Shown here: positions 5,749 through 52,073 of the stretch, one piece after another | Numbering within the stretch: position 1 is the stretch's first letter | Layout: each line of letters begins with the position of its first letter | IMG/VR virus record: IMGVR_UViG_3300025070_000043 | Coordinates: 1-54,509 of that record | Direction: 5' to 3' (one strand) | DNA length: 54,509 nucleotides | DNA from: a virus | The notes under the pieces: generated by a model | Told to the model about the DNA's origin: nothing | Seen by the model: only the letters and a program-made list of their open reading frames with translations | Database searches by the model: none | Position numbers and translations under genes: made by a program

Positions 5749-7407
5749 ATGGAACACACAGATTCAAAAGAAGTTTCCAGAGGAAGTTGCGAAGCTTGTG
5801 GCTCGTCAGACGCAAATATATCCTACTCAGATGGACACACTTATTGTTTCTCATGCACAGCATATACGAAAGGGGATACAGACGATATGCAGTACACAAA
5901 GCCAGCACCTATTCAAGGTGTATATCACAATCAGTTTACAGATGGTCAGGTAACAGGACTTTCAGACAGAAAGATTAGCCAACAGACTTGTCAATTCTTT
6001 GGCGTAAAGACTGTCTCTTCTGGTGACCAGATTGTAAAACATATCTATCCATACTTTGACGAATCAGGTGCTCATGTAGCCAACAAGGTTCGTCAGGTAC
6101 AGAACAAGGGCTTCATGTCAGAAGGTCAGTTACCAAAGGCAAAGCTATTTGGTCAGCAGAAGTTTGGACAAAGAGGTAAGTTTATTACCATCTGTGAGGG
6201 TGAGCTGGATGCCATGTCTGCTTACGAACTAATGGGTTCTAAGTGGCCTGTTGTGTCCATCAAGAATGGTGCTCAGTCTGCACTAAAAGATGTGAAACAA
6301 AGTTACGATTACCTCAATCAATTTGAAACAATTGTTGTCTGCTTTGACAATGACGAACAAGGTAAGCTGGCTGCAGGTAAAGTTGCTCAATTGTTTGAGC
6401 CTAACAAGTGTAAGATTATGGATATGCAGTACAAGGATGCTAACGAGTATCTCAAACTAAACAAACGTGAAGAGTTTACTCGTGCATGGTGGGATGCAAA
6501 ACAATACACACCTGCTGGCATCCATAACCTTGCAGACATATCAGACAGGCTCTATCAAGAGGAAGATGTAGAGACTTGTCTTTATCCTTATCAGGGTCTA
6601 AATGAGAAGCTGTTTGGTATTCGTACTGGTGAACTGGTAACAGTTACTGCAGGTACAGGCGCAGGGAAATCCAGCATGATGCGTGAGTTGATGCATCACC
6701 TGCTTATGAATACAAAACATAATGTAGGTGTATTCTCTCTGGAAGAGAACATCAAACAGACTGCTTTCCATCTGATGTCTGTTGAAGCAAGTGACCGTAT
6801 CTATATCAAAGAGGTTCGGGAAAAGTACAGTCTAGAACAGCTAAAGGAACTAGAACGTAAGACCATTGGCACACGTAGGTTCTATGCCTTTGACCACTTT
6901 GGTTCTATTACTACAGATGAAATACTCAGCCGGGTACGTTATATGGTCAAGGCTCTTGACTGTAAGTTTATTATCATTGACCACCTGTCCATCCTTGTAT
7001 CAGGCTTGGAAGGTGAAGATGAACGCAGAAACATTGACCAGCTTATGACTAAGCTTAGGTCACTGGTAGAAGAAACCAGATGTGCAATGCTTCTTGTTTC
7101 TCACTTGCGTAGGGCAACAGGCGATAAGGGTCAGGAACAGGGCAAGGAAATATCTCTGTCCATGTTACGTGGCTCACATTCTATTGCTCAGATTAGTGAC
7201 GCAGTGATTGCGTTGGAACGTGACCAGCAAGCACAAGACCCTGTACAGGCAAACACAACCGCAGTCAGGGTATTGAAGAATCGTTATGCAGGTGAGACAG
7301 GTGTAGCCACCTACCTTCTGTATGATAAGGACACTGGCAGAATGTCAGAGATTGAGAACCCGTTTGAGGCAGACTCTAACGCAGATGATATAGGAGATTT
7401 TCTATGA
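5749..7407 (+). CDS. Bifunctional DNA primase-helicase, T7 gp4-like
   Basis: 552 residues, close to T7 gp4 (566). An N-terminal zinc finger has C14, C17, C33 and C36. A TOPRIM primase domain follows with E150 in ICEGELDAM and D200/D202 in VCFDNDEQGK. The C-terminal RecA-type DnaB helicase domain has Walker A GTGAGKS at 302-308 and Walker B FIIIDH ending at D411. It primes and unwinds DNA at the phage fork. GGAG lies before the ATG. The stop overlaps the next gene by 4 bases, so primase, nuclease and polymerase are translated as a linked set. Confidence 0.95.
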   Translation: MEHTDSKEVSRGSCEACGSSDANISYSDGHTYCFSCTAYTKGDTDDMQYTKPAPIQGVYHNQFTDGQVTGLSDRKISQQTCQFFGVKTVSSGDQIVKHIYPYFDESGAHVANKVRQVQNKGFMSEGQLPKAKLFGQQKFGQRGKFITICEGELDAMSAYELMGSKWPVVSIKNGAQSALKDVKQSYDYLNQFETIVVCFDNDEQGKLAAGKVAQLFEPNKCKIMDMQYKDANEYLKLNKREEFTRAWWDAKQYTPAGIHNLADISDRLYQEEDVETCLYPYQGLNEKLFGIRTGELVTVTAGTGAGKSSMMRELMHHLLMNTKHNVGVFSLEENIKQTAFHLMSVEASDRIYIKEVREKYSLEQLKELERKTIGTRRFYAFDHFGSITTDEILSRVRYMVKALDCKFIIIDHLSILVSGLEGEDERRNIDQLMTKLRSLVEETRCAMLLVSHLRRATGDKGQEQGKEISLSMLRGSHSIAQISDAVIALERDQQAQDPVQANTTAVRVLKNRYAGETGVATYLLYDKDTGRMSEIENPFEADSNADDIGDFL

Positions 7408-7874
7408 AGGTAGCAAAGATTGATGGGGCATATAACAGACGCTTCAGCCGACAGAGTTACGAGGAGAATGATGCAAAGGCTAGAGAAGCAATCATGTCCT
7501 ACTTACAAAACAATGGACATGAAATACTTGATAGCACAGAGAACTTTTCATTTGACATCAAGAGCAAAAAAGGAGATAATACGTACTTCTCAGAGGCAGA
7601 GATGAAGAACCAATGGAAAGGTGATTGGCCTGATACATGGAAAGAAATCAGGATACCCTACCGAAAACATAAGCTTATCAATAGGATGGCAGAATTAGGA
7701 GCAGACAATCATTTCTTTAACTTCTATGTCATTCGTAATGATTGCAAAGCAGCATGGCGAATCAAAGACTTTGTTGTTGCCGAATCAGAAGTTAAGAAGT
7801 TATTTAGTTATCGTGTAAAAGGTGAAAGCTTTTTCCACATACCCTATCAGAAAGCGGAGCTAGTAGAACTATGA
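7404..7874 (+). CDS. Putative PD-(D/E)XK-type nuclease between primase and polymerase
   Basis: 156 residues overlapping both neighbours by 4 bases. A candidate active site is D51 (in FSFDIKSK) and E66-x-K68 (in FSEAEMKNQ), the PD-(D/E)XK order. A conserved-looking WKGDWPDTWKEIRIPYRKHK stretch follows. Proteins of this kind are often labelled endonuclease in marine podoviruses. It may process replication or recombination intermediates or degrade host DNA. It is distinct from the T7 endonuclease I homologue at 11431. The fold is inferred from spacing only. Confidence 0.55.
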   Translation: MKVAKIDGAYNRRFSRQSYEENDAKAREAIMSYLQNNGHEILDSTENFSFDIKSKKGDNTYFSEAEMKNQWKGDWPDTWKEIRIPYRKHKLINRMAELGADNHFFNFYVIRNDCKAAWRIKDFVVAESEVKKLFSYRVKGESFFHIPYQKAELVEL

Positions 7875-9520
7875 AAAGAGTAGTGCTTGATATCGAGACA
7901 GATGACCTAAATGCAACTGTAGTACACTGCATTGTGGCACAGGACTTAGATACAGGCGCAGTGGACACATGGTATGGGGAGTCCATCAAGGACTTCCCTG
8001 CATGGTCAGAGAGTGTAGATGTCTTTGTCATGCATAACGGTGTGTCCTTTGATGCGCCTGTTGTAAATCGTTTGACAGGCAGTAAAATACCTTTGAAGAA
8101 GGTAAGGGATACACTGATTATGTCTCAGCTTTATGACCCTTCCCTTGAGGGTGGTCATTCATTAGGGGCATGGGGTGAAAGGCTTGGCTACCCAAAGATA
8201 GAATTTAATGACTTCTCTGTATTTACACAAGAGATGTTAAAATATTGTAAACAGGACGTGGTTGTTACTGTAAAGCTATACGAACATCTACTTCCTCATA
8301 TGAAAAAGTATTCTGGTAAATCTATTCAGCTTGAGCATGAGGTGAGAGCAATTGTTGACAAGCAAGAAGAGAATGGATTTACTCTTAATATCCCGGAAGC
8401 TTCATGCCTTGTTGCAAGGCTCTCAGAAGAGGCTACAGAGATTGAACAGGAGATGCAAGGTATATTTCCCCCTATCGTAACAGAACGCCACTCAGAGAAG
8501 ACAGGAAAGCGTTTAAAAGATAAGGTAGAAATATTCAATCCTGCATCAAGACAGCAGATAGGTAAACGACTTATGGATAAGGGATGGAAACCTAATAAGT
8601 TTACCCCTACAGGCCAGCCAATTGTGGATGAAGGTACATTAAAAGATGTGGACATCCCAGAGGCACAGAAGATTGCACAATATCTGTTGTTGCAAAAGAG
8701 AGTTTCACAGGTCAAGTCTTGGCTTGATGTTGTGGAAGACGATGGTAAGGTTCATGGTAGAGTTATTACCTTGAAAGCCATCAGTGGACGCATGGCACAC
8801 AACTCCCCAAACATGGCACAAGTACCTGCCGTTTACTCTCCCTACGGCAAAGAGTGCAGACAAGTTTGGAAAACAAGCAGTGACAAATACAAACTGCTGG
8901 GATGTGATGCTAGTTCACTTGAACTTAGATGCTTGGCACACTATATGGGTGACAAGAAATTTACTGATGAGGTAGTGGGTGGTGACATCCACACTGCAAA
9001 TCAGAAAGCCGCAGGACTTCCTACCAGAGATTCAGCAAAGACATTTATCTATGCTCTAATTTATGGTGCAGGTCCAGCTAAGATTGGTAGTATCGTTGGT
9101 GGTGGTGCTAGAGAAGGACAAATCATTATGAAAAAGTTTATGTCCAATATGCCAGCCTTAAAAACCTTGCGTGATAAGGTAGATAAGGCAGCAAATACAG
9201 GATATATTCGTGGTCTTGATGGTAGGCTTTTAAAGGTACGTCAGCAACACGCTGCCATGAACCTCTTACTACAGGGGGCAGGTGCTATCATTTGTAAAGA
9301 ATGGTTGCGGCAAATAACTATCATGGCGCAACGAGATTATGAATACAATCTTGTTGCGTCTATACATGACGAGTATCAGTTTGAGATTCGTGCTGACCAA
9401 GCAGAACGCTTTGGTGAACTCACACAAAAGGCAATGAAGCAAGTACAGGAAACCCTGTCTGTTGTTTGTCCTTTAGATAGTGAGTATAAAATTGGAAACA
9501 ATTGGGCAGAAACTCATTAA
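7871..9520 (+). CDS. Family A DNA polymerase with 3'-5' exonuclease, T7-like
   Basis: 549 residues. Exonuclease motifs: DIET (D7, E9), HNGVSFD (D61) and YCKQDVVVT (D129). Polymerase motifs: A, CDASSLELR (D346); B, RDSAKTFIYALIYGAG (R386, K390); C, IHDEYQF (D500). The end, PLDSEYKIGNNWAETH, matches the T7 gp5 C-terminus pattern. It is about 155 residues shorter than T7 gp5. The piece before FNPASRQQIGKRL that carries the thioredoxin-binding insertion in T7 is only about 25 residues here, so thioredoxin-dependent processivity is unlikely. It starts by ATGA overlap with the nuclease gene. Confidence 0.95.
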   Translation: MKRVVLDIETDDLNATVVHCIVAQDLDTGAVDTWYGESIKDFPAWSESVDVFVMHNGVSFDAPVVNRLTGSKIPLKKVRDTLIMSQLYDPSLEGGHSLGAWGERLGYPKIEFNDFSVFTQEMLKYCKQDVVVTVKLYEHLLPHMKKYSGKSIQLEHEVRAIVDKQEENGFTLNIPEASCLVARLSEEATEIEQEMQGIFPPIVTERHSEKTGKRLKDKVEIFNPASRQQIGKRLMDKGWKPNKFTPTGQPIVDEGTLKDVDIPEAQKIAQYLLLQKRVSQVKSWLDVVEDDGKVHGRVITLKAISGRMAHNSPNMAQVPAVYSPYGKECRQVWKTSSDKYKLLGCDASSLELRCLAHYMGDKKFTDEVVGGDIHTANQKAAGLPTRDSAKTFIYALIYGAGPAKIGSIVGGGAREGQIIMKKFMSNMPALKTLRDKVDKAANTGYIRGLDGRLLKVRQQHAAMNLLLQGAGAIICKEWLRQITIMAQRDYEYNLVASIHDEYQFEIRADQAERFGELTQKAMKQVQETLSVVCPLDSEYKIGNNWAETH

Positions 9521-9612: not shown

Positions 9613-10086
9613 ATGCCAGTATTATCAGGAAAGTCCCATTGGGCATCTATCACTTCACCAAACAAAACATTTGAACCACATAAATGGATGATTGATTTGT
9701 CTTTGGAAGGTGAAGAACTTGAGAAAGCTAAGAAGATTGGTCTATCTATTAAGAACAAAGGTGATGAAAGAGGAGACTTTGTTTCCATTTCTCGTAAGGT
9801 CTATCGTAAAGATGGTGGTGAGAACAGCTCACCGGGCTTGGTAGATAGTCAAAAACGTCCTATGGAAAATACTCTTATTGGTAACGGCTCAGATGTAAAT
9901 GTTTTGTTTAAAACATATGAGTGGGAGTATGCAGGAAAAGCAGGTGTAGGCTCTGACCTTCAAAAGGTTCAGGTTGTAAACCTAATTTCATACGGAGATG
10001 ATGATGATTTTGATGTTGTGTCTGGTGGACATAGTGCAGTAGATACCTTAGACGATGATATCCCCTTTGGAAACACTGGTAGCTAA
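9613..10086 (+). CDS. Putative single-stranded DNA-binding protein
   Basis: 157 residues beginning MPVLSGKSHWASITSPNKTF, with an OB-like mixed beta core and an acidic tail (DTLDDDIPFGNTGS). Acidic C-terminal tips of the DDIPF kind are typical of SSB and gp2.5-type proteins, which use them to bind replication partners. The position right after the polymerase and behind its own promoter fits a protein needed in high amounts. No sequence motif proves the fold. Confidence 0.7.
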   Translation: MPVLSGKSHWASITSPNKTFEPHKWMIDLSLEGEELEKAKKIGLSIKNKGDERGDFVSISRKVYRKDGGENSSPGLVDSQKRPMENTLIGNGSDVNVLFKTYEWEYAGKAGVGSDLQKVQVVNLISYGDDDDFDVVSGGHSAVDTLDDDIPFGNTGS

Positions 10087-14188: not shown

Positions 14189-14346
14189 TGTGGGAATACT
14201 GGTGTAAAGCAATGGGCAGCAAGGCATATGACGATAATGCCAAAGCAAACAAAGTAGCAATACTTAGAACTGCTTGGGTTGTTCTTCATGTCCTTGCCTG
14301 TCTAGCAATTATATTTCATAACACACAAAAGATGGGATGGTGGTAA
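14185..14346 (+). CDS. Small single-pass membrane protein after RNR
   Basis: 53 residues from ATG 14185 (a second ATG follows at 14188), overlapping the RNR stop. A polar, Trp-containing N-terminus is followed by one hydrophobic helix (TAWVVLHVLACLAIIF) and a short tail ending MGWW. The stop is TAATG-coupled to the next gene. No function is known. Confidence 0.55.
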   Translation: MMWEYWCKAMGSKAYDDNAKANKVAILRTAWVVLHVLACLAIIFHNTQKMGWW

Positions 14347-14993
14347 TGAGTAACATAGTAAACATACCCCCTACTAAAGTATGGGTAAGAAAAGAATATC
14401 TAACAGACCATCAGTCTGGACATGGTGAATTTGTAGAGGGATACTGGGTAACGGCAAAGTCGTTGCCCGGTAGAACCTTTTACTTTGAAACATATCTTCC
14501 TAGCTATGCAGCTATGTATGATAAACTTCCTATCTCTGCCTTTGTTTCAGAGCCTAAGTTACCAGACCCTGACCTTCCTCTGGACGAGCTACAGTTCTGG
14601 AACTGCATGGACTATGGTGTAACCGCCATTGAGAAACAGTTCATAGGCTCTATGGGCTTTCAAGCTCGAACAAAGAGGCATGGAATGATAGGTGGTAAGT
14701 ATCTTTTCACATTAGACAATCTGCATGAGAACATTCAGCAAGTAGATTGTAATGTTAGTGAAGTACCTCAAGAGCATAAGTCATTTAATTGTCTTGAGCT
14801 TGAGAATGGACAGTACTGTTTATATCCTAACAATAGAATGAGAATATATGATGTGTCCTTATCACCTAAAGAAGTGAAGACACCTGACTTCAAAGTATCT
14901 ACAGAATATTATGAAGTAGAAAATCCTTTCTCAGATTGGGGAACATTGGGAGACAGTGAAGATTACTTTTGGAAAACTGAGAGTGAGAAATAA
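14346..14993 (+). CDS. Conserved hypothetical protein downstream of RNR
   Basis: 215 residues from the TAATG-coupled ATG (an ATG three codons earlier is open but less likely). It begins MSNIVNIPPTKVWVRKEYL; the N-terminal half is beta-rich and the centre reads LDELQFWNCMDYGVTAIEKQ. It is soluble and acidic with no motif I can assign. Adjacent to RNR in the same unit, it may act with nucleotide metabolism, but that is only positional. Confidence 0.65.
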   Translation: MSNIVNIPPTKVWVRKEYLTDHQSGHGEFVEGYWVTAKSLPGRTFYFETYLPSYAAMYDKLPISAFVSEPKLPDPDLPLDELQFWNCMDYGVTAIEKQFIGSMGFQARTKRHGMIGGKYLFTLDNLHENIQQVDCNVSEVPQEHKSFNCLELENGQYCLYPNNRMRIYDVSLSPKEVKTPDFKVSTEYYEVENPFSDWGTLGDSEDYFWKTESEK

Positions 14994-15147: not shown

Positions 15148-15180
15148 TATAGTAGTTATAATTGAAAGGTGTGTATTATT

Positions 15181-15957
15181 ATGTTTACAGAGAAAAGACC
15201 AGTAATTTATATTGGATATGATGCAAGGGAGCATGAGGCTTATGAAGTACTACGTAAATCAATTCTTCAGTACAATGAAAAGTTTGACATTATCCCTCTC
15301 GTACAACCTGCATTACGTAGAGCAGGTCTGTATAGGCGTACTATTCGTTTCGATAGTAATGCTGAATCACCTGTTCGTATAGATGAATGTGATGGCAGAC
15401 CTTTCAGTTCTGACTTTACCTTTACACGTTTCTTAGTTCCTGCCCTTAATCAGTATGACGGTCTTGCATTGTTTATGGATGCAGATATGTTTGTACGTTG
15501 GGATATTGAAGAACTATTTAATACCTATGGTAAACGTGAAGAGTTTGCTGTTCAAGTAGTCAAACATAACTACAGACCTAACGAAGGTCTAAAGATGGAT
15601 GGACAAGTACAACAGAATTATAATCGTAAGAACTGGTCTAGCTTTGTTCTTTGGAATTGTTCTCACCCATCTAATCTTAACCTAACTGTAGATGACGTAA
15701 ACACAAAGACAGGTAGCTGGTTGCATGGCTTCTCTTGGTTGTCTGACAATGAAATAGGTTCTATTGAACCAGAGTGGAATTGGTTGGACGGATGGTCACC
15801 AGAAAATATCTTACCTAAGAACGTACACTTTACTACAGGTGGTCCTTGGTTTGATGATTGGAAAGGTAAACGCAAATCAGACACTGAATATGCTGGTGAA
15901 TGGCAAGCATTTAAAAGCAAAGTGTTTATGGATAAACTAGTAGGAGAAGTAATCTAA
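15181..15957 (+). CDS. Glycosyltransferase, GT-A fold (family 8-like)
   Basis: 258 residues from ATG 15181; a GTG at 15169 sits against the AAAGG and is less likely. The N-terminus PVIYIGYDAREHEAYEVLRK and LALFMDADMFVRWDIEELF (DxD motif D100/D102) are typical of GT-A, GT8-like nucleotide-sugar transferases. The Trp-rich centre (LHGFSWLSDNE, WNWLDGWSPENILP) and a C-terminal HFTTGGPWFDDWKG probably form the acceptor site. It overlaps the three-domain protein by one base (TAATG). Together they may glycosylate a phage structural protein, host surface sugar or DNA; the target is unknown. Confidence 0.8.
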   Translation: MFTEKRPVIYIGYDAREHEAYEVLRKSILQYNEKFDIIPLVQPALRRAGLYRRTIRFDSNAESPVRIDECDGRPFSSDFTFTRFLVPALNQYDGLALFMDADMFVRWDIEELFNTYGKREEFAVQVVKHNYRPNEGLKMDGQVQQNYNRKNWSSFVLWNCSHPSNLNLTVDDVNTKTGSWLHGFSWLSDNEIGSIEPEWNWLDGWSPENILPKNVHFTTGGPWFDDWKGKRKSDTEYAGEWQAFKSKVFMDKLVGEVI

Positions 15958-18254
15958 TGTATATATTTGTAACCTCATTTAGTGAAAGCGGATACCATGA
16001 ATATGCTAAGAAAATGTTGGAAAGTGTTACAGAAAAATGGAATCCAAAACACTTTCAATTATATGCCTATTACCATGACTTTGACATTAAAGATGTCGAT
16101 GCTCCTGTGGCTGATAATATTCATTATCGCAATCTTAACGACATAACAGAAATGGTTCAGTATCGTGAACGTATGAAGACATATGACGGTACGCATGGTG
16201 GAACACAGCCATATAATTGGAGGCTAGATGCAATTAAGTGGTGTCACAAAGTTTATGCTCTATCAGACCTTGCATTTGAAATGATGGAAGAAGAAGTACA
16301 TGACGAAAGTAACTGGATGATTTGGTTAGATGCAGATACAGTAACAACTAAAAGGTTAGATGTAAAACAATTTCCTAAGTGGCTTCCAGATAAAGCAGAC
16401 TTAGTACATCTTGGAAGAAAGGATGCAGACTATAGTGAAACAAGTTTTCTTGGGTTTAACCTATCTTCTCACAATACTTGCAGCATCATTGCTGATTTTA
16501 GAGGTGCTTACACTATTGGAGAAACCATTGCATATAGAGAGTGGCATGATGGATTCATTTTTGAACGACTCCTCAACATCTACAAAGCCCACGGAATGGT
16601 CACAAGAAATTTATCTGAACACGCCAAAGGACTAGCAGCCTTTGCTCAGTCACCTTTGTCTGAATACTTTGACCACTATAAAGGTAATCTAAAAAAGAAA
16701 CTTAGTAGTACAGAAGTTGCACCAGATGTTACTGGTCCTAAAAGATACAAGCAACTTGCAGATATAGTACGCTTTTATAAACCTAGTACTATTGTAGAAA
16801 CAGGTACATGGAATGGTGGACGTGCTATTGAAATGGCTCTGGCTGCTTTTGAAAACACAGACAAAGTGCATTATATTGGTTTTGATTTGTTTCAGGATGC
16901 GACAGAACAGTCAGATGAATATGAAATGAACAGCAAGGCGCACAACATGGTAGAAGCTGTTGAAAGACGGTTGGATGATTTCTCTTATAGAATGTCACGC
17001 ACAGAAAAAAAGTTTACCTATGAGTTACACAAAGGAGATAGTAAGAAAACTGTTCCTGCTTGTGCCAAACTTAAAGAAGCAGACTTTGCTTACATAGATG
17101 GTGGACATTCTTATGAAACGGTAAAAGCAGATTGGGAAAACATAAAGGAACACGTTCCTGTTGTTGTCTTTGATGATTACTTTTCAGAAGATAAGAATGG
17201 TAACCTTCCTAAAGAGGAACATCTAGGTGTTAACAAGTTAATGAAAGAGGTAGAAGCTTATGGAAAAGTGGTATTGCCTAGTTCTGACGGGGTTCTTGGT
17301 GGTGGCATTACACATCTTTGTTTTGTAGCTAACAAGAAGGGACTTCCTAAACTACCAGACGAACTAACTCGTGTACCTATTTTGGTTACACCTAAAGATT
17401 CAAGACCTAAAGAAGAAATTATTAATAATGTAAAAGAAAATAGAAAGTTAATAAAAGATTTTGATTGGATTAAAACAAGTAAAGTAAATAATGAAACAGC
17501 AATTATTGTATCTGGTGGTAACATTAATTTTGATAAACTAAAAGAACGTATTGCTACAACAAACAATAAGGTATTCTGTGTCAAGCATAGCTATCCACGT
17601 TTGATTGAGAATGGTATTCAACCATTTGCTTGTGTGATACTTGACCCTAGACCTATTGATGGTGTTAGTACACATGGTGTAAAACGTAAAGATTTATTTA
17701 AGAAGGTAGACCAAGAAACTATTTTCCTTGTTGCTTCTATGACTGACCCTTCTGTTACTAAGCATCTTATAAAAAAGAAAGCTAATGTAAAAGGATGGCA
17801 AGCATACTCAGATGCTTTACGTGATATGGAAGTAAAAGATAAGATTGTAGTAGACAAGGCTACAGGTATTGACGAGGGTTCTACTCTCATTACAGGTGGG
17901 ACTTGTGCAGCCATGAGAACACTTGCCATTGGACATACTCTTGGCTTCCGTAACTTTGAACTGTTTGGTTTTGATTGTTCTATAGATGAAGTAACAGAAG
18001 AAATGAAAAAAGAAACTACAGATACAGAACAGAGTAAACCTAAATACATGAAGGTAGAACTAAACAACAATCACTTCTGGACTACTGGTGAGCTACTTGC
18101 TATGGCACAAGACTGTGAAAAACTTTTTGACCAAATGGAAATTGACATGGGTGTAGTCTTTCATGGTGAAGGAACATTGTGCTCAGAAGTTTGGAAATCT
18201 TCTAAGAGGGGTCAAGAAAAACATTACTCTGAGTTACTAAATGTCGCAGCTTAA
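15957..18254 (+). CDS. Three-domain glycosyltransferase - SAM methyltransferase - DUF115 fusion
   Basis: 765 residues, soluble. Domain 1 (about 1-240) is a GT-A glycosyltransferase with D125-x-D127 in WLDADTVTT. Domain 2 (about 265-460) is a class I SAM methyltransferase of Methyltransf_24 type, with motif I VETGTWNGG (E281, G283) and AYIDGGHSYETVKADW (D381). Domain 3 (about 512-755) resembles DUF115/MAF_flag10 (6-hydroxymethylpterin pyrophosphokinase MptE-like): TAIIVSGGNINF, CVKHSYPRLIENGIQP, CVILDPRP and LITGGTCAAMRTLAIGHTLG, a family tied to flagellin and surface glycosylation. It overlaps the GT gene upstream by one base and terS downstream by 14. Domain bounds are estimates; the substrate is unknown. 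Confidence 0.8.
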   Translation: MYIFVTSFSESGYHEYAKKMLESVTEKWNPKHFQLYAYYHDFDIKDVDAPVADNIHYRNLNDITEMVQYRERMKTYDGTHGGTQPYNWRLDAIKWCHKVYALSDLAFEMMEEEVHDESNWMIWLDADTVTTKRLDVKQFPKWLPDKADLVHLGRKDADYSETSFLGFNLSSHNTCSIIADFRGAYTIGETIAYREWHDGFIFERLLNIYKAHGMVTRNLSEHAKGLAAFAQSPLSEYFDHYKGNLKKKLSSTEVAPDVTGPKRYKQLADIVRFYKPSTIVETGTWNGGRAIEMALAAFENTDKVHYIGFDLFQDATEQSDEYEMNSKAHNMVEAVERRLDDFSYRMSRTEKKFTYELHKGDSKKTVPACAKLKEADFAYIDGGHSYETVKADWENIKEHVPVVVFDDYFSEDKNGNLPKEEHLGVNKLMKEVEAYGKVVLPSSDGVLGGGITHLCFVANKKGLPKLPDELTRVPILVTPKDSRPKEEIINNVKENRKLIKDFDWIKTSKVNNETAIIVSGGNINFDKLKERIATTNNKVFCVKHSYPRLIENGIQPFACVILDPRPIDGVSTHGVKRKDLFKKVDQETIFLVASMTDPSVTKHLIKKKANVKGWQAYSDALRDMEVKDKIVVDKATGIDEGSTLITGGTCAAMRTLAIGHTLGFRNFELFGFDCSIDEVTEEMKKETTDTEQSKPKYMKVELNNNHFWTTGELLAMAQDCEKLFDQMEIDMGVVFHGEGTLCSEVWKSSKRGQEKHYSELLNVAA

Positions 18255-49383: not shown

Positions 49384-49575
49384 TCACTCCTCATCGTCTT
49401 CATACATTACTTTGTTTACCATATTTTTAACTTCTGCTCTGGCCCACTCCAATCCTGAAATGCGACCTACAGAGTTCATATACGTATGATAATCCGAAGC
49501 TGCTCCTGATGCAAGCGAATTTTTTACTAATTCAATTTCTCTATGTAATAATTTATCTATTTCTTCTATAAGCAT
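49384..49575 (-). CDS. Small helical protein next to portal
   Basis: 63 residues, helical (IEEIDKLLHREIELVKNSLA; SGLEWARAEVKNMVNKVMY), with an acidic end. TAATG with the portal stop, and its stop sits just before the GroES-like start. Similar small genes follow the portal in other marine podoviruses. No known role. Confidence 0.6.
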   Translation of the reverse strand: MLIEEIDKLLHREIELVKNSLASGAASDYHTYMNSVGRISGLEWARAEVKNMVNKVMYEDDEE

Positions 49576-52073
49576 TATTTATTCTTTGTGCCTGAAATCA
49601 TTTTACTAATAACATCAATTGCTTTAGCAGCTTCTGAGCTTTCAAGATTGTCTTCATGCTTTACCATATCTGCAAGAAGTTCTACTGCCTTAATAGCTGC
49701 TTTGGCATTTCTGTCTTTTTCTTTCTCGTCAGCCTTGAGTGTACCCTCTGCACCAATCTTATATGCGTCAAGTGCCAGCTTCTGTTCTTTCAAGTCAAGG
49801 TCACGGTTCTTCAAAGCACCTTCACTTGCTTCTTTAGCAAGTTGTGCCTGTACCTTTTCTTGTTCAATACTAAGTCTTTGTGCTTCCATCTGAACCATTG
49901 CTTGTTCAGGTGATGGACCTCTTTGTGCTGCAGCTTGATTAGCTTGCATTACCTGCTGTGCAGCTGCCATCATTACCTGTTCAATAACTTGTGGGTTCTG
50001 AGCATTAGGGTCACCTTGTGGTGCTTGTGCCATCATTTGACGTGTTAAACCATTAATCTGCTCTTCATACTTCATTACTACGTGTTCTTGTATGTTAGCT
50101 TGTAGAATAGGAACTACACGTTGCATAATTGGGTTGGCACCATTAGCAGGGTCTTGCATAAACATAGTTTTAATTTGAATATGTGCATCATGATTTTGTC
50201 CTGCAAATGCTTTAATAGGAAGACCTTTAGTTGCTGCTTCAATGTCTGTTACAGGGTCAAGAGCTTGTGCCTCTGGCTTTTGTGGAAGTATCCTGTCTAA
50301 GTTAGGAATGTTTGCCGCATTAAGAAGTGTGCGGTTTAGTTCTTCCATATTAAACATACCGGGTGGTGATTGCTGTGCTTGCTGCATAACCATCTGTGCC
50401 ATCATCAACCTGTGGGCAGACGAAGGAATATTAGGGTCAGATACAGGAAGTACATCAACACGACCATCAAAGTCACGTTTAAAAATTGTTTCACTTACAC
50501 CGGGAACATCATAAGGATATTTAGCAGGTAAACTTTCATAGTTAATACGTGCAAGAATTTTAAACTCATCCCGTTGTGATTTATGTAATCGTTTATGAAT
50601 TGCACTAAAGAACTTACTAGAAGCCTCAAGCAATGCCATAGTTGTACCTACAGGACCATAGTTAGAACCTTCTGTAATAACTTGCTCTGTAGTATCAGCA
50701 AACTTTTGACCTGCTCCTGAGACAAACTGAAGCATTTGGAATAATGTGCCTGATGGTTCTTTATAAGGCAAAGGTACAATTGAACGAGACAAGTCCATAC
50801 CTGTTGCTTCTACTTCTTTAAACTCACCCGGAGCAATAGGGTCATTGTCTCCTACAATGCGAACACCTTTTGCTTTAAAGCCACCGGGCAAGTTAGCAAA
50901 CTGTCCTGCATCAATAAGGTTACGCATAGCTGCAGTGGCAGACATTGTAAGGTTACCAAGGAAGTGAATAAGACCAAGACCATAGAAACCAAATCCCGGA
51001 ACAAAACGATAATGAGTAAAGAACATTTTCTTTTCTTTATTTTTATCTTCTTCATTCCAGTTTCTACGAATAGACAGTACTTTACGTGTTGTTTCTTCAA
51101 TAGTTACAATGTAAGGACATTCATAACCATGACCTTCAATATCAAGATAACAGTGCTGTTCAAGAAGAACATACTGCATATCTGTATCGGAAGAAGGAGA
51201 CAAACCAAGTACTGTGTCCATTTTTTGTGTTAGGTCTGATTGTTCTGGGATATATGCATCAGGTAGTTCTACTTCTGCATACATACCTGAGTACATTGCG
51301 TTTGCAATCTCACGAGGGCTGCGATATAGAACATGAGTATACCTATCAGCCCGTCTTAGGTCTGTGGCATAGTAAGATACATAGAACTGGTCAATAGGAA
51401 CAAACTCACTAACAGGACGCTCTACTGAACCATCATAATAAATCTTTTTAAATGAACTACCAATTAATGGTAAATGAAACAACATACGCTCAAACTCATC
51501 GAAGTATTCTGGCATCTTATCAGTCAACTGATAGTTCATAAAGTTTTGAACACGATTTGCTTGTTGTTGTTTTTCAACCGATACATCACCAAGAACTTGA
51601 GCTTTAACTGGGCCACTGGAAGGAAATAGTTCTTGGGATGCACGGCTCTGGAATTTAACCGCAGACTCTATGAGTAGTGGATGTACAGCAGTTGCTGCAC
51701 CTTCAAAAGGTTCTGTAGTTTCTTCCAGTTTCAAACCAAGCAGGTCAAAGCCTCGTTCAAACATGGATTCCCATTCTGCCCGTGACTCTTTATCTGCTTC
51801 GTATTTTTCGTAAACTTCTTCACCGATACTAATAAGTTCGTCTTCTTCTATTTGCTCGGCAAGGTTAGAATAAAATTCGTCTTCAATATTAAAATCTACA
51901 ATATTGTCTATATCTTGTAAATCCATTTCTGGCATAAACTCTACTTCTAGTTCGCCTGTTTCTGAATCTACTTCAAAATTTACATTTGGAAAATCTTCTT
52001 CGTTTTGTTCAATATTTAATTGAATAACATTTTCTTTACCAATAGGGTCATTAGGATTTTTTTCAATAGCCAT
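49575..52073 (-). CDS. Portal protein
   Basis: 832 residues. Acidic N-terminal arm (ENVIQLNIEQNEEDFPNVNF), then a portal core with FEGAATAVHPLLIESAVKFQ, RVQNFMNYQLTDKMPEYFDE, LPLIGSSFKKIYYDGSVERP, and YRFVPGFGFYGLGLIHFLGN, typical of P22 gp1-like portals. The C-terminal third is a long Gln/Ala-rich coiled coil or barrel (QQVMQANQAAAQRGPSPEQA). It forms the dodecameric DNA entry ring and binds TerL. It follows terL by 45 bases. Confidence 0.88.
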   Translation of the reverse strand: MAIEKNPNDPIGKENVIQLNIEQNEEDFPNVNFEVDSETGELEVEFMPEMDLQDIDNIVDFNIEDEFYSNLAEQIEEDELISIGEEVYEKYEADKESRAEWESMFERGFDLLGLKLEETTEPFEGAATAVHPLLIESAVKFQSRASQELFPSSGPVKAQVLGDVSVEKQQQANRVQNFMNYQLTDKMPEYFDEFERMLFHLPLIGSSFKKIYYDGSVERPVSEFVPIDQFYVSYYATDLRRADRYTHVLYRSPREIANAMYSGMYAEVELPDAYIPEQSDLTQKMDTVLGLSPSSDTDMQYVLLEQHCYLDIEGHGYECPYIVTIEETTRKVLSIRRNWNEEDKNKEKKMFFTHYRFVPGFGFYGLGLIHFLGNLTMSATAAMRNLIDAGQFANLPGGFKAKGVRIVGDNDPIAPGEFKEVEATGMDLSRSIVPLPYKEPSGTLFQMLQFVSGAGQKFADTTEQVITEGSNYGPVGTTMALLEASSKFFSAIHKRLHKSQRDEFKILARINYESLPAKYPYDVPGVSETIFKRDFDGRVDVLPVSDPNIPSSAHRLMMAQMVMQQAQQSPPGMFNMEELNRTLLNAANIPNLDRILPQKPEAQALDPVTDIEAATKGLPIKAFAGQNHDAHIQIKTMFMQDPANGANPIMQRVVPILQANIQEHVVMKYEEQINGLTRQMMAQAPQGDPNAQNPQVIEQVMMAAAQQVMQANQAAAQRGPSPEQAMVQMEAQRLSIEQEKVQAQLAKEASEGALKNRDLDLKEQKLALDAYKIGAEGTLKADEKEKDRNAKAAIKAVELLADMVKHEDNLESSEAAKAIDVISKMISGTKNK

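Follow-up and report, generated by a model that had tools for sequence, protein, structure and literature searches.

Bacteriophage T7 is the textbook example of a minimal replisome. According to the excerpts of PMC8472574 used here, thioredoxin raises the processivity of T7 gp5 80-fold, polymerase paired with helicase is processive for up to 17 kb, removal of the helicase tail costs only threefold, and a beta-loop carrying W579 sits at the fork. The thioredoxin-binding insertion occupies T7 residues 258-333 in the numbering of PMC3556154, a paper whose cited passage describes an extended loop retained at this T7 site in phiCbK-type polymerases. HMO-2011-type polymerases are described in part of PMC9038755 as carrying a partial DnaJ domain, with two CxxCxGxG motifs, between the exonuclease and polymerase domains. 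The thioredoxin dependence of T7 has been extended to other phages. In the passages cited, phage-encoded thioredoxins were proposed to help the T7-like polymerases of the roseophage DSS3-Phi8 (PMC4961962) and of Privateer (PMC7881722), a thioredoxin gene was reported in most clade A cyanophages (PMC9381782), and a 2014 review singled out the polymerases of Syn5 and P-SSP7, among others, as promising to characterize (PMC3997047). Compact T7-like phage polymerases without the thioredoxin insertion are already a known kind, to which the enzyme described below adds a member; within the portion of the open-access literature covered here, we found no statement that this polymerase group lacks the insertion.

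The DNA analyzed, referred to as the window, is a whole virus record of 54,509 bases. The polymerase gene and the features discussed with it are collected in Table 1.

Table 1. Coordinates of the polymerase gene, its neighbors, and two sites within it
Feature	Position	Strand	Remarks
T7 gp4-like primase-helicase, proposed source of processivity	5749..7407	+	552 aa; acidic C-terminal tail ending DDIGDFL
ORF for a predicted PD-(D/E)XK, Holliday-junction-resolvase-like nuclease	7404..7874	+	156 aa; shares an ATGA overlap with each flanking gene (helicase and polymerase)
T7-like family A DNA polymerase with 3'-5' exonuclease, without thioredoxin-binding insertion	7871..9520	+	549 aa
Thumb-tip beta-hairpin occupying the site of the T7 thioredoxin-binding domain	8465..8539 (codons 199-223)	+	F-P-P-I-x-x-E-R-x-S-x-K-T-G-x-R-L-x-D-x-V-x-x-F-N
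Short stretch corresponding to the fork beta-loop of T7 (15 residues, with W579) and the basic residues beside it	9167..9211 (codons 433-447)	+	both absent here
SSB-like protein	9613..10086	+	homology to HTVC103P/104P/115P proteins annotated as ssDNA-binding; C-terminal DDDIPFGNTGS

Identity of the polymerase

The polymerase ORF opens with the ATG at 7871, its stop codon ends at 9520, and the frame has no internal stops. The product matched the Pfam DNA_pol_A model (PF00476) with an E value of 2e-49 and 168.9 bits against a cut-off of 34.3, and PHROG_17 (DNA polymerase) with an E value of 5e-146. Its best solved match was T7 gp5 (E 4e-84), with 218 of 546 aligned positions identical (40%). The two exonuclease Pfam models scored just under their cut-offs (21.9 of 22 and 19.4 of 23.6), and the four exonuclease carboxylates aligned with those of T7. 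All catalytic positions examined were retained relative to T7 gp5, these being D7, E9, D61, and D129 of the exonuclease and D346, E351, R386, K390, Y394 (equivalent to T7 Y526), Y398, D500, and E501 of the polymerase, and they include the tyrosine at the 526/762 position. A sequence-only reading of this DNA had claimed T7-like exonuclease and polymerase motifs, and the retained residues together with the Pfam, PHROG, and T7 gp5 matches bear this out. In the broad sense, the enzyme is a T7-like (gp5-type) replicative polymerase, having T7 gp5 as its closest solved structure and a co-encoded gp4-like primase-helicase.

Matches to the polymerase were found in 4,509 of 50,697 phage records, every one below 60% identity. 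The top named matches were Pelagibacter phages HTVC104P, HTVC103P, and HTVC115P, at 45.9-46.7% identity and 100% coverage, and judged from such relatives the window phage is probably marine. A megablast search of window positions 1-25000 against the phage records returned no matches.

Differences in length from T7 gp5

The protein had been put at about 155 residues shorter than T7 gp5, and the alignment gave exactly that figure (158 T7-only residues minus three found only in the window protein). The thioredoxin-binding region, previously estimated at about 25 residues, measured 22 as compared to 72 in T7 when counted between two anchor phenylalanines, one in the thumb (F261 in T7, F199 in the window protein) and the other in FNPxSR (F334 and F222, respectively). 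The insertion thus accounts for only 50 of the 155 residues, and the deficit is distributed over the whole protein, with approximately 47 residues in the compact exonuclease domain, 17 in the linker between exonuclease and thumb, and approximately 43 elsewhere in the polymerase domain. The last of these includes the 15-residue fork beta-loop with W579, whose region spans 19 residues in the window protein versus 34 in T7, so that a fork-engaging element of the T7 type is absent. Beside this loop, T7 residues K587, K589, R590, and R591 are replaced by a gap, N, T, and G, respectively. In T7 this basic patch, and likewise the basic loops of the insertion, are docking sites for the helicase tail. 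Having no insertion, the window polymerase does not show the structural hallmark of the thioredoxin-dependent gp5/Trx holoenzyme. The idea that the short thumb segment is homologous with the beginning of the T7 insertion ('HPxTGxxL') found no support in the alignment and is kept as a lead only.

Predicted structure

An AlphaFold2 model was computed from the window protein and 54 of 76 computed viral-contig locus references, with no templates, and had a mean pLDDT of 95.4 and a pTM of 0.91. At the site of the thioredoxin domain the model shows a two-stranded hairpin, with strands at residues 202-207 and 214-220 in a block with pLDDT of 91-92. The sequence-only reading had named a structural model as the test of its claim that no equivalent thioredoxin-binding loop exists, and the short hairpin is all that the model places there. 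The structural alignment to T7 gp5 that it had suggested covered 535 residues at 2.2 A. In the VIA-align search the best match was T7 gp5 (2ajq) with a Z score of 40.4, and the top ten rows were all T7 entries. The Z scores of the T7 entries (33.5 to 40.4) overlapped those of bacterial Pol I (6vdd at 35.6, others from 33.1 to 34.5), so the two are poorly distinguished by fold alone. T7-like sequences in the alignment may have pulled the model towards T7, but they could not create the missing insertion. The window polymerase resembles T7 gp5 in fold, catalytic residues, the pairing of exonuclease and polymerase domains, and a gp4-type helicase partner, and differs from it in the compactness of its exonuclease domain and in lacking the insertion, the W579 loop, and the adjacent basic patch.

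Distribution of the thioredoxin-binding insertion

The thumb span was counted with the G of 'NGF' as its start and the N of 'FNP' as its end. By this count the span is 36 in E. coli Pol I, 55 in both the window protein and HTVC019P, 63 in Syn5, 66 in HTVC103P, and 67 in LUZ100, with longer spans in CRP-804 (72), SIO1 (75), Titus (94), and T7 (105). A span of 55 was found in 79 of the 80 closest viral loci listed, and the remaining locus (L072) reads 47 with an anchor residue unaligned; the short loop is therefore not a matter of chance. Spans were measured in 488 sequences, of which 470 were viral-contig loci among the matches listed, and the counts are accordingly not frequencies. Six loci without a usable polymerase ORF were dropped, the panel omits ProddE (L091), which has an intron, and P-SSP7 (L096), whose gene is split, and neither tree includes CRP-1 (L497). 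Among 460 sequences, which are not independent of one another, 352 combined a short span (<90) with no beta-loop, 84 were long at both sites, 23 had a long span without the beta-loop, and one (RHEph21) had the beta-loop with a short span.

The first tree was computed without the loop columns and comprised 93 representatives, obtained by clustering 456 usable sequences at 80%; the second comprised 90 representatives with both loops masked and the long branches phiKMV, Vibrio 1.253, and SP6 omitted. Both were quick searches rooted with E. coli Pol I, a very distant outgroup. Thirteen rows of the first tree, including T7 and having spans of 94 to 115, formed one clade with 100% SH-aLRT support. 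The T7-type insertion was present in 13 of the 90 representatives of the second tree, all in one clade; a pattern identified 12, and L372, with a 115-residue span, was added. Parsimony on the second tree gave absence of a T7-type insertion as the state of the root and of the nodes leading to the T7 clade, of which only one, a weak node just below that clade, was ambiguous. Given the rooted parsimony and the one-clade distribution, we favor a gain of the insertion within the T7 clade over a loss here. On these alignments and trees, the window lineage most likely never had a thioredoxin-binding domain. The earlier wording, in which the region was reduced from a T7-like state, is not supported by a Pol I-rooted tree on which the insertion is gained in the T7 clade and the relatives sampled usually have short loops. 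The thioredoxin mode of T7 looks like a local innovation, making T7 appear exceptional and the window enzyme fairly ordinary.

Comparison with named phage polymerases

The polymerases of pelagiphages HTVC103P, HTVC104P, and HTVC115P are compact like that of the window and likewise have an SSB-like protein and a gp4-like helicase encoded nearby, but their 66-residue span holds an element ending YVKGVPFTKVKYxEFN, similar to the C-terminal end of the T7 insertion, where the 55-residue span of the window enzyme has the hairpin. The polymerase of pelagiphage HTVC019P matches the window enzyme in span (55 residues) and almost entirely in hairpin sequence (IVTERWSTKTGKKLKDQV), yet it is 38.6% identical overall and lies on another branch of the tree. 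Roseophage SIO1 resembles the window in having genes for an SSB-like protein, a Cas4-like exonuclease, an endonuclease, and ribonucleotide reductase after the polymerase, as well as a MazG gene and no T7-type insertion; its polymerase differs in a span of 75, another thumb element, and 38.5% identity. The HMO-2011-type phage CRP-1, like the window, encodes a family A polymerase and is a marine phage of about 54 kb. Its polymerase (L497:10474-12525), however, has two CxxCxGxG motifs between the exonuclease and polymerase domains and is 23% identical over the polymerase domain only. This hallmark of a partial DnaJ domain with two such motifs is absent from the window polymerase, which contains no CxxC at all. 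The zinc-finger motifs of CRP-1 are another appendage near the site of the T7 thioredoxin domain. The Klenow fragment of E. coli Pol I shares the short thumb tip and the absence of a fork beta-loop, but has the shorter span of 36 and is not a phage replicase.

Because the marine relatives sampled have no T7-type binding domain, thioredoxin in such phages more likely serves ribonucleotide reductase. The polymerase of the clade A cyanophage Syn5 (L097:5017-6768) has a thumb span of only 63, so the thioredoxin of clade A may not be a polymerase factor.

Conservation of the thumb hairpin

Twelve hairpin residues (F199, P200, P201, I202, R206, S208, T211, G212, L215, D217, F222, and N223) were identical in 79 of 79 loci listed with the 55-residue span, which represent 43 distinct segments. 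As judged from this conservation, the hairpin is a retained element rather than a scar. Near-identical hairpins were also found in 15 loci (L208-L218, L230-L232, and L237) and in HTVC019P, all set apart on the tree. The lineage of those 15 loci is placed near the T7 clade and yet has almost the thumb hairpin of the window. Shared ancestry with repeated replacement, or module exchange, would each explain so scattered an occurrence.

We tentatively entertain the possibility that the 25-residue hairpin works as an independent module, built into the enzyme in place of a thioredoxin-binding domain, and would grip the duplex or dock the conserved acidic DFL tail of the helicase. Thumb tips may be swappable modules, since the hairpin occurs little changed, with a consensus of about F-[PE]-P-[IL]-x-x-E-R-x-S-x-K-T-G-x-[RK]-L-x-D-x-[VI]-x-x-F-N, in three separately placed lineages (the window clade, the 15 loci above, and HTVC019P). 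If this were true, the hairpin, the YVKG element, the T7 insertion, and the DnaJ zinc finger would be interchangeable thumb tips of such phage replicases.

Candidate sources of processivity

The sequence-only reading had argued that processivity must come from elsewhere, naming the primase-helicase, the SSB, or an unknown small protein. With the insertion a T7-clade gain and short loops usual, this is no special puzzle of this phage. Among the candidates the helicase is best supported, the SSB-like protein is possible, and the ORF at 7404-7874 was rejected as an obligatory factor. The helicase ORF was matched at 73 of the 80 closest loci listed, many of them short contigs, and the acidic aromatic tail of the helicase is retained, 71 of the 73 helicase ORFs ending in [DE][FY][LI] and the remaining two in MGDW. 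A homologue of the SSB-like protein was present at 75 of the 80 closest loci listed. Searches of the record for thioredoxin, glutaredoxin, and beta-clamp returned no match at E <= 1, with positive controls in 14, 14, and 10 of 14 genomes, respectively, and a Pfam search of 30 window ORFs, which covered a minority of those on the minus strand, revealed no recognizable replication factor. The phage RNA polymerase model PF00940 had no matches in the record and likewise none in the control genomes.

Proposed mechanism and alternatives

We consider it likely that the enzyme, homologous to T7 gp5 but from a lineage that most probably had no thioredoxin domain at any stage, replicates the DNA of a probably marine phage, and that it operates independently of thioredoxin and coupled to a helicase. 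Given the conserved ring helicase and no recognized clamp, such synthesis is the most likely mode. The polymerase would work without thioredoxin, the conserved and slightly basic thumb hairpin together with a Pol I-like thumb would hold the duplex behind the active site, chromosomal processivity would be supplied by the ring helicase of the adjacent upstream gene, to which the polymerase would be coupled, and the SSB-like protein would coat the displaced strand. In light of the 80-fold effect of thioredoxin in T7, an enzyme of this kind could be poorly processive alone. Also weighing against this reading, the window enzyme has neither of the T7 docking sites for the helicase tail. A virioplankton study, in the part cited here, found gp4 helicases predominantly with Tyr762 polymerases, and its synthesized Tyr762 enzymes showed no strand displacement (PMC9069017); these results fit a helicase-dependent enzyme. 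As a compact exonuclease-plus-polymerase replicase of 549 residues, compared to 605 for the Klenow fragment, the window enzyme offers a natural test of helicase coupling alone.

An ancestor with a T7-type thioredoxin domain, deleted in the window lineage with recruitment of a new factor, could be imagined from the standing of T7 gp5 as the closest solved relative and from the thumb spans of at least 91 in seven representatives outside the T7 clade (CHOED, CcrColossus, SP6, Vibrio 1.253, L220, L259, and L330). No long span outside the T7 clade that was included in the second tree fits the T7 core pattern, however (SP6 and Vibrio 1.253 having been left out of it), and with absence ancestral under rooted parsimony and the T7-type insertion in a single fully supported clade, we regard secondary loss as quite improbable. 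The continued action of host thioredoxin or another host clamp, through the short hairpin or another surface, is somewhat easier to envisage, as thioredoxin is a common bacterial protein and a hairpin so strongly conserved probably does something; nevertheless, the window enzyme lacks the 50 residues that form the body of the T7 insertion, and we consider this unlikely.

That the 156-residue ORF next door encodes a dedicated processivity factor substituting for thioredoxin is suggested by its ATGA overlaps with both the helicase and polymerase genes and by a homologue at 35 of the 80 closest loci listed, but the idea is very hard to sustain. The ORF is absent from 41 of the 73 close loci that have the helicase ORF; 39 of these 41 have a helicase ORF that runs into the polymerase ORF or stops within 48 nt of it. 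The product, which had no Pfam or PHROG match, has a family alignment (the window and 23 of 25 references, L001 and the truncated L006 being left out) in which D51, E66, and K68 are invariant. Its model, with a pLDDT of 84, weakly resembles Holliday-junction resolvases (1ob9, Foldseek E 6.7e-4, TM 0.44-0.53, rmsd 6.0); only two PDB matches reached an E value of 0.001, the resolvase and a SPARDA complex (9.1e-4). The absences and this Hjc-like, nuclease-like predicted fold led us to reject an obligatory role. In SIO1, P12053L, ICBM1, ICBM3, and CRP-1, moreover, the homologue lies away from the polymerase gene. Homologues occurred in 19 phage records, all roseophage or SIO1-type, and in 11 of the 19 a gene for PhoH, glutaredoxin, or thioredoxin lies beside the homologue or overlaps with it.

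Other genes of the window

The portal gene (49575-52073, minus strand) had matches in only 18 phage records, the best being HTVC023P, DSL-LC04, HTVC027P, CRP-901/902, and Caulobacter phages such as RW. Set against the matches of the polymerase, this indicates that the nearest relatives differ between structural and replication genes. Near the ribonucleotide reductase gene, positions 14337-14993 (plus strand) encode a 218-residue protein matching PHROG 3704 (ferredoxin annotation, E 3e-103). Positions 15169-18254 (plus strand) encode a GT8-like glycosyltransferase followed by a 765-residue protein whose middle part matches phrog_2675 (DNA methyltransferase annotation, E 1e-8); from these matches, a surface- or sugar-modifying function of the pair is possible.
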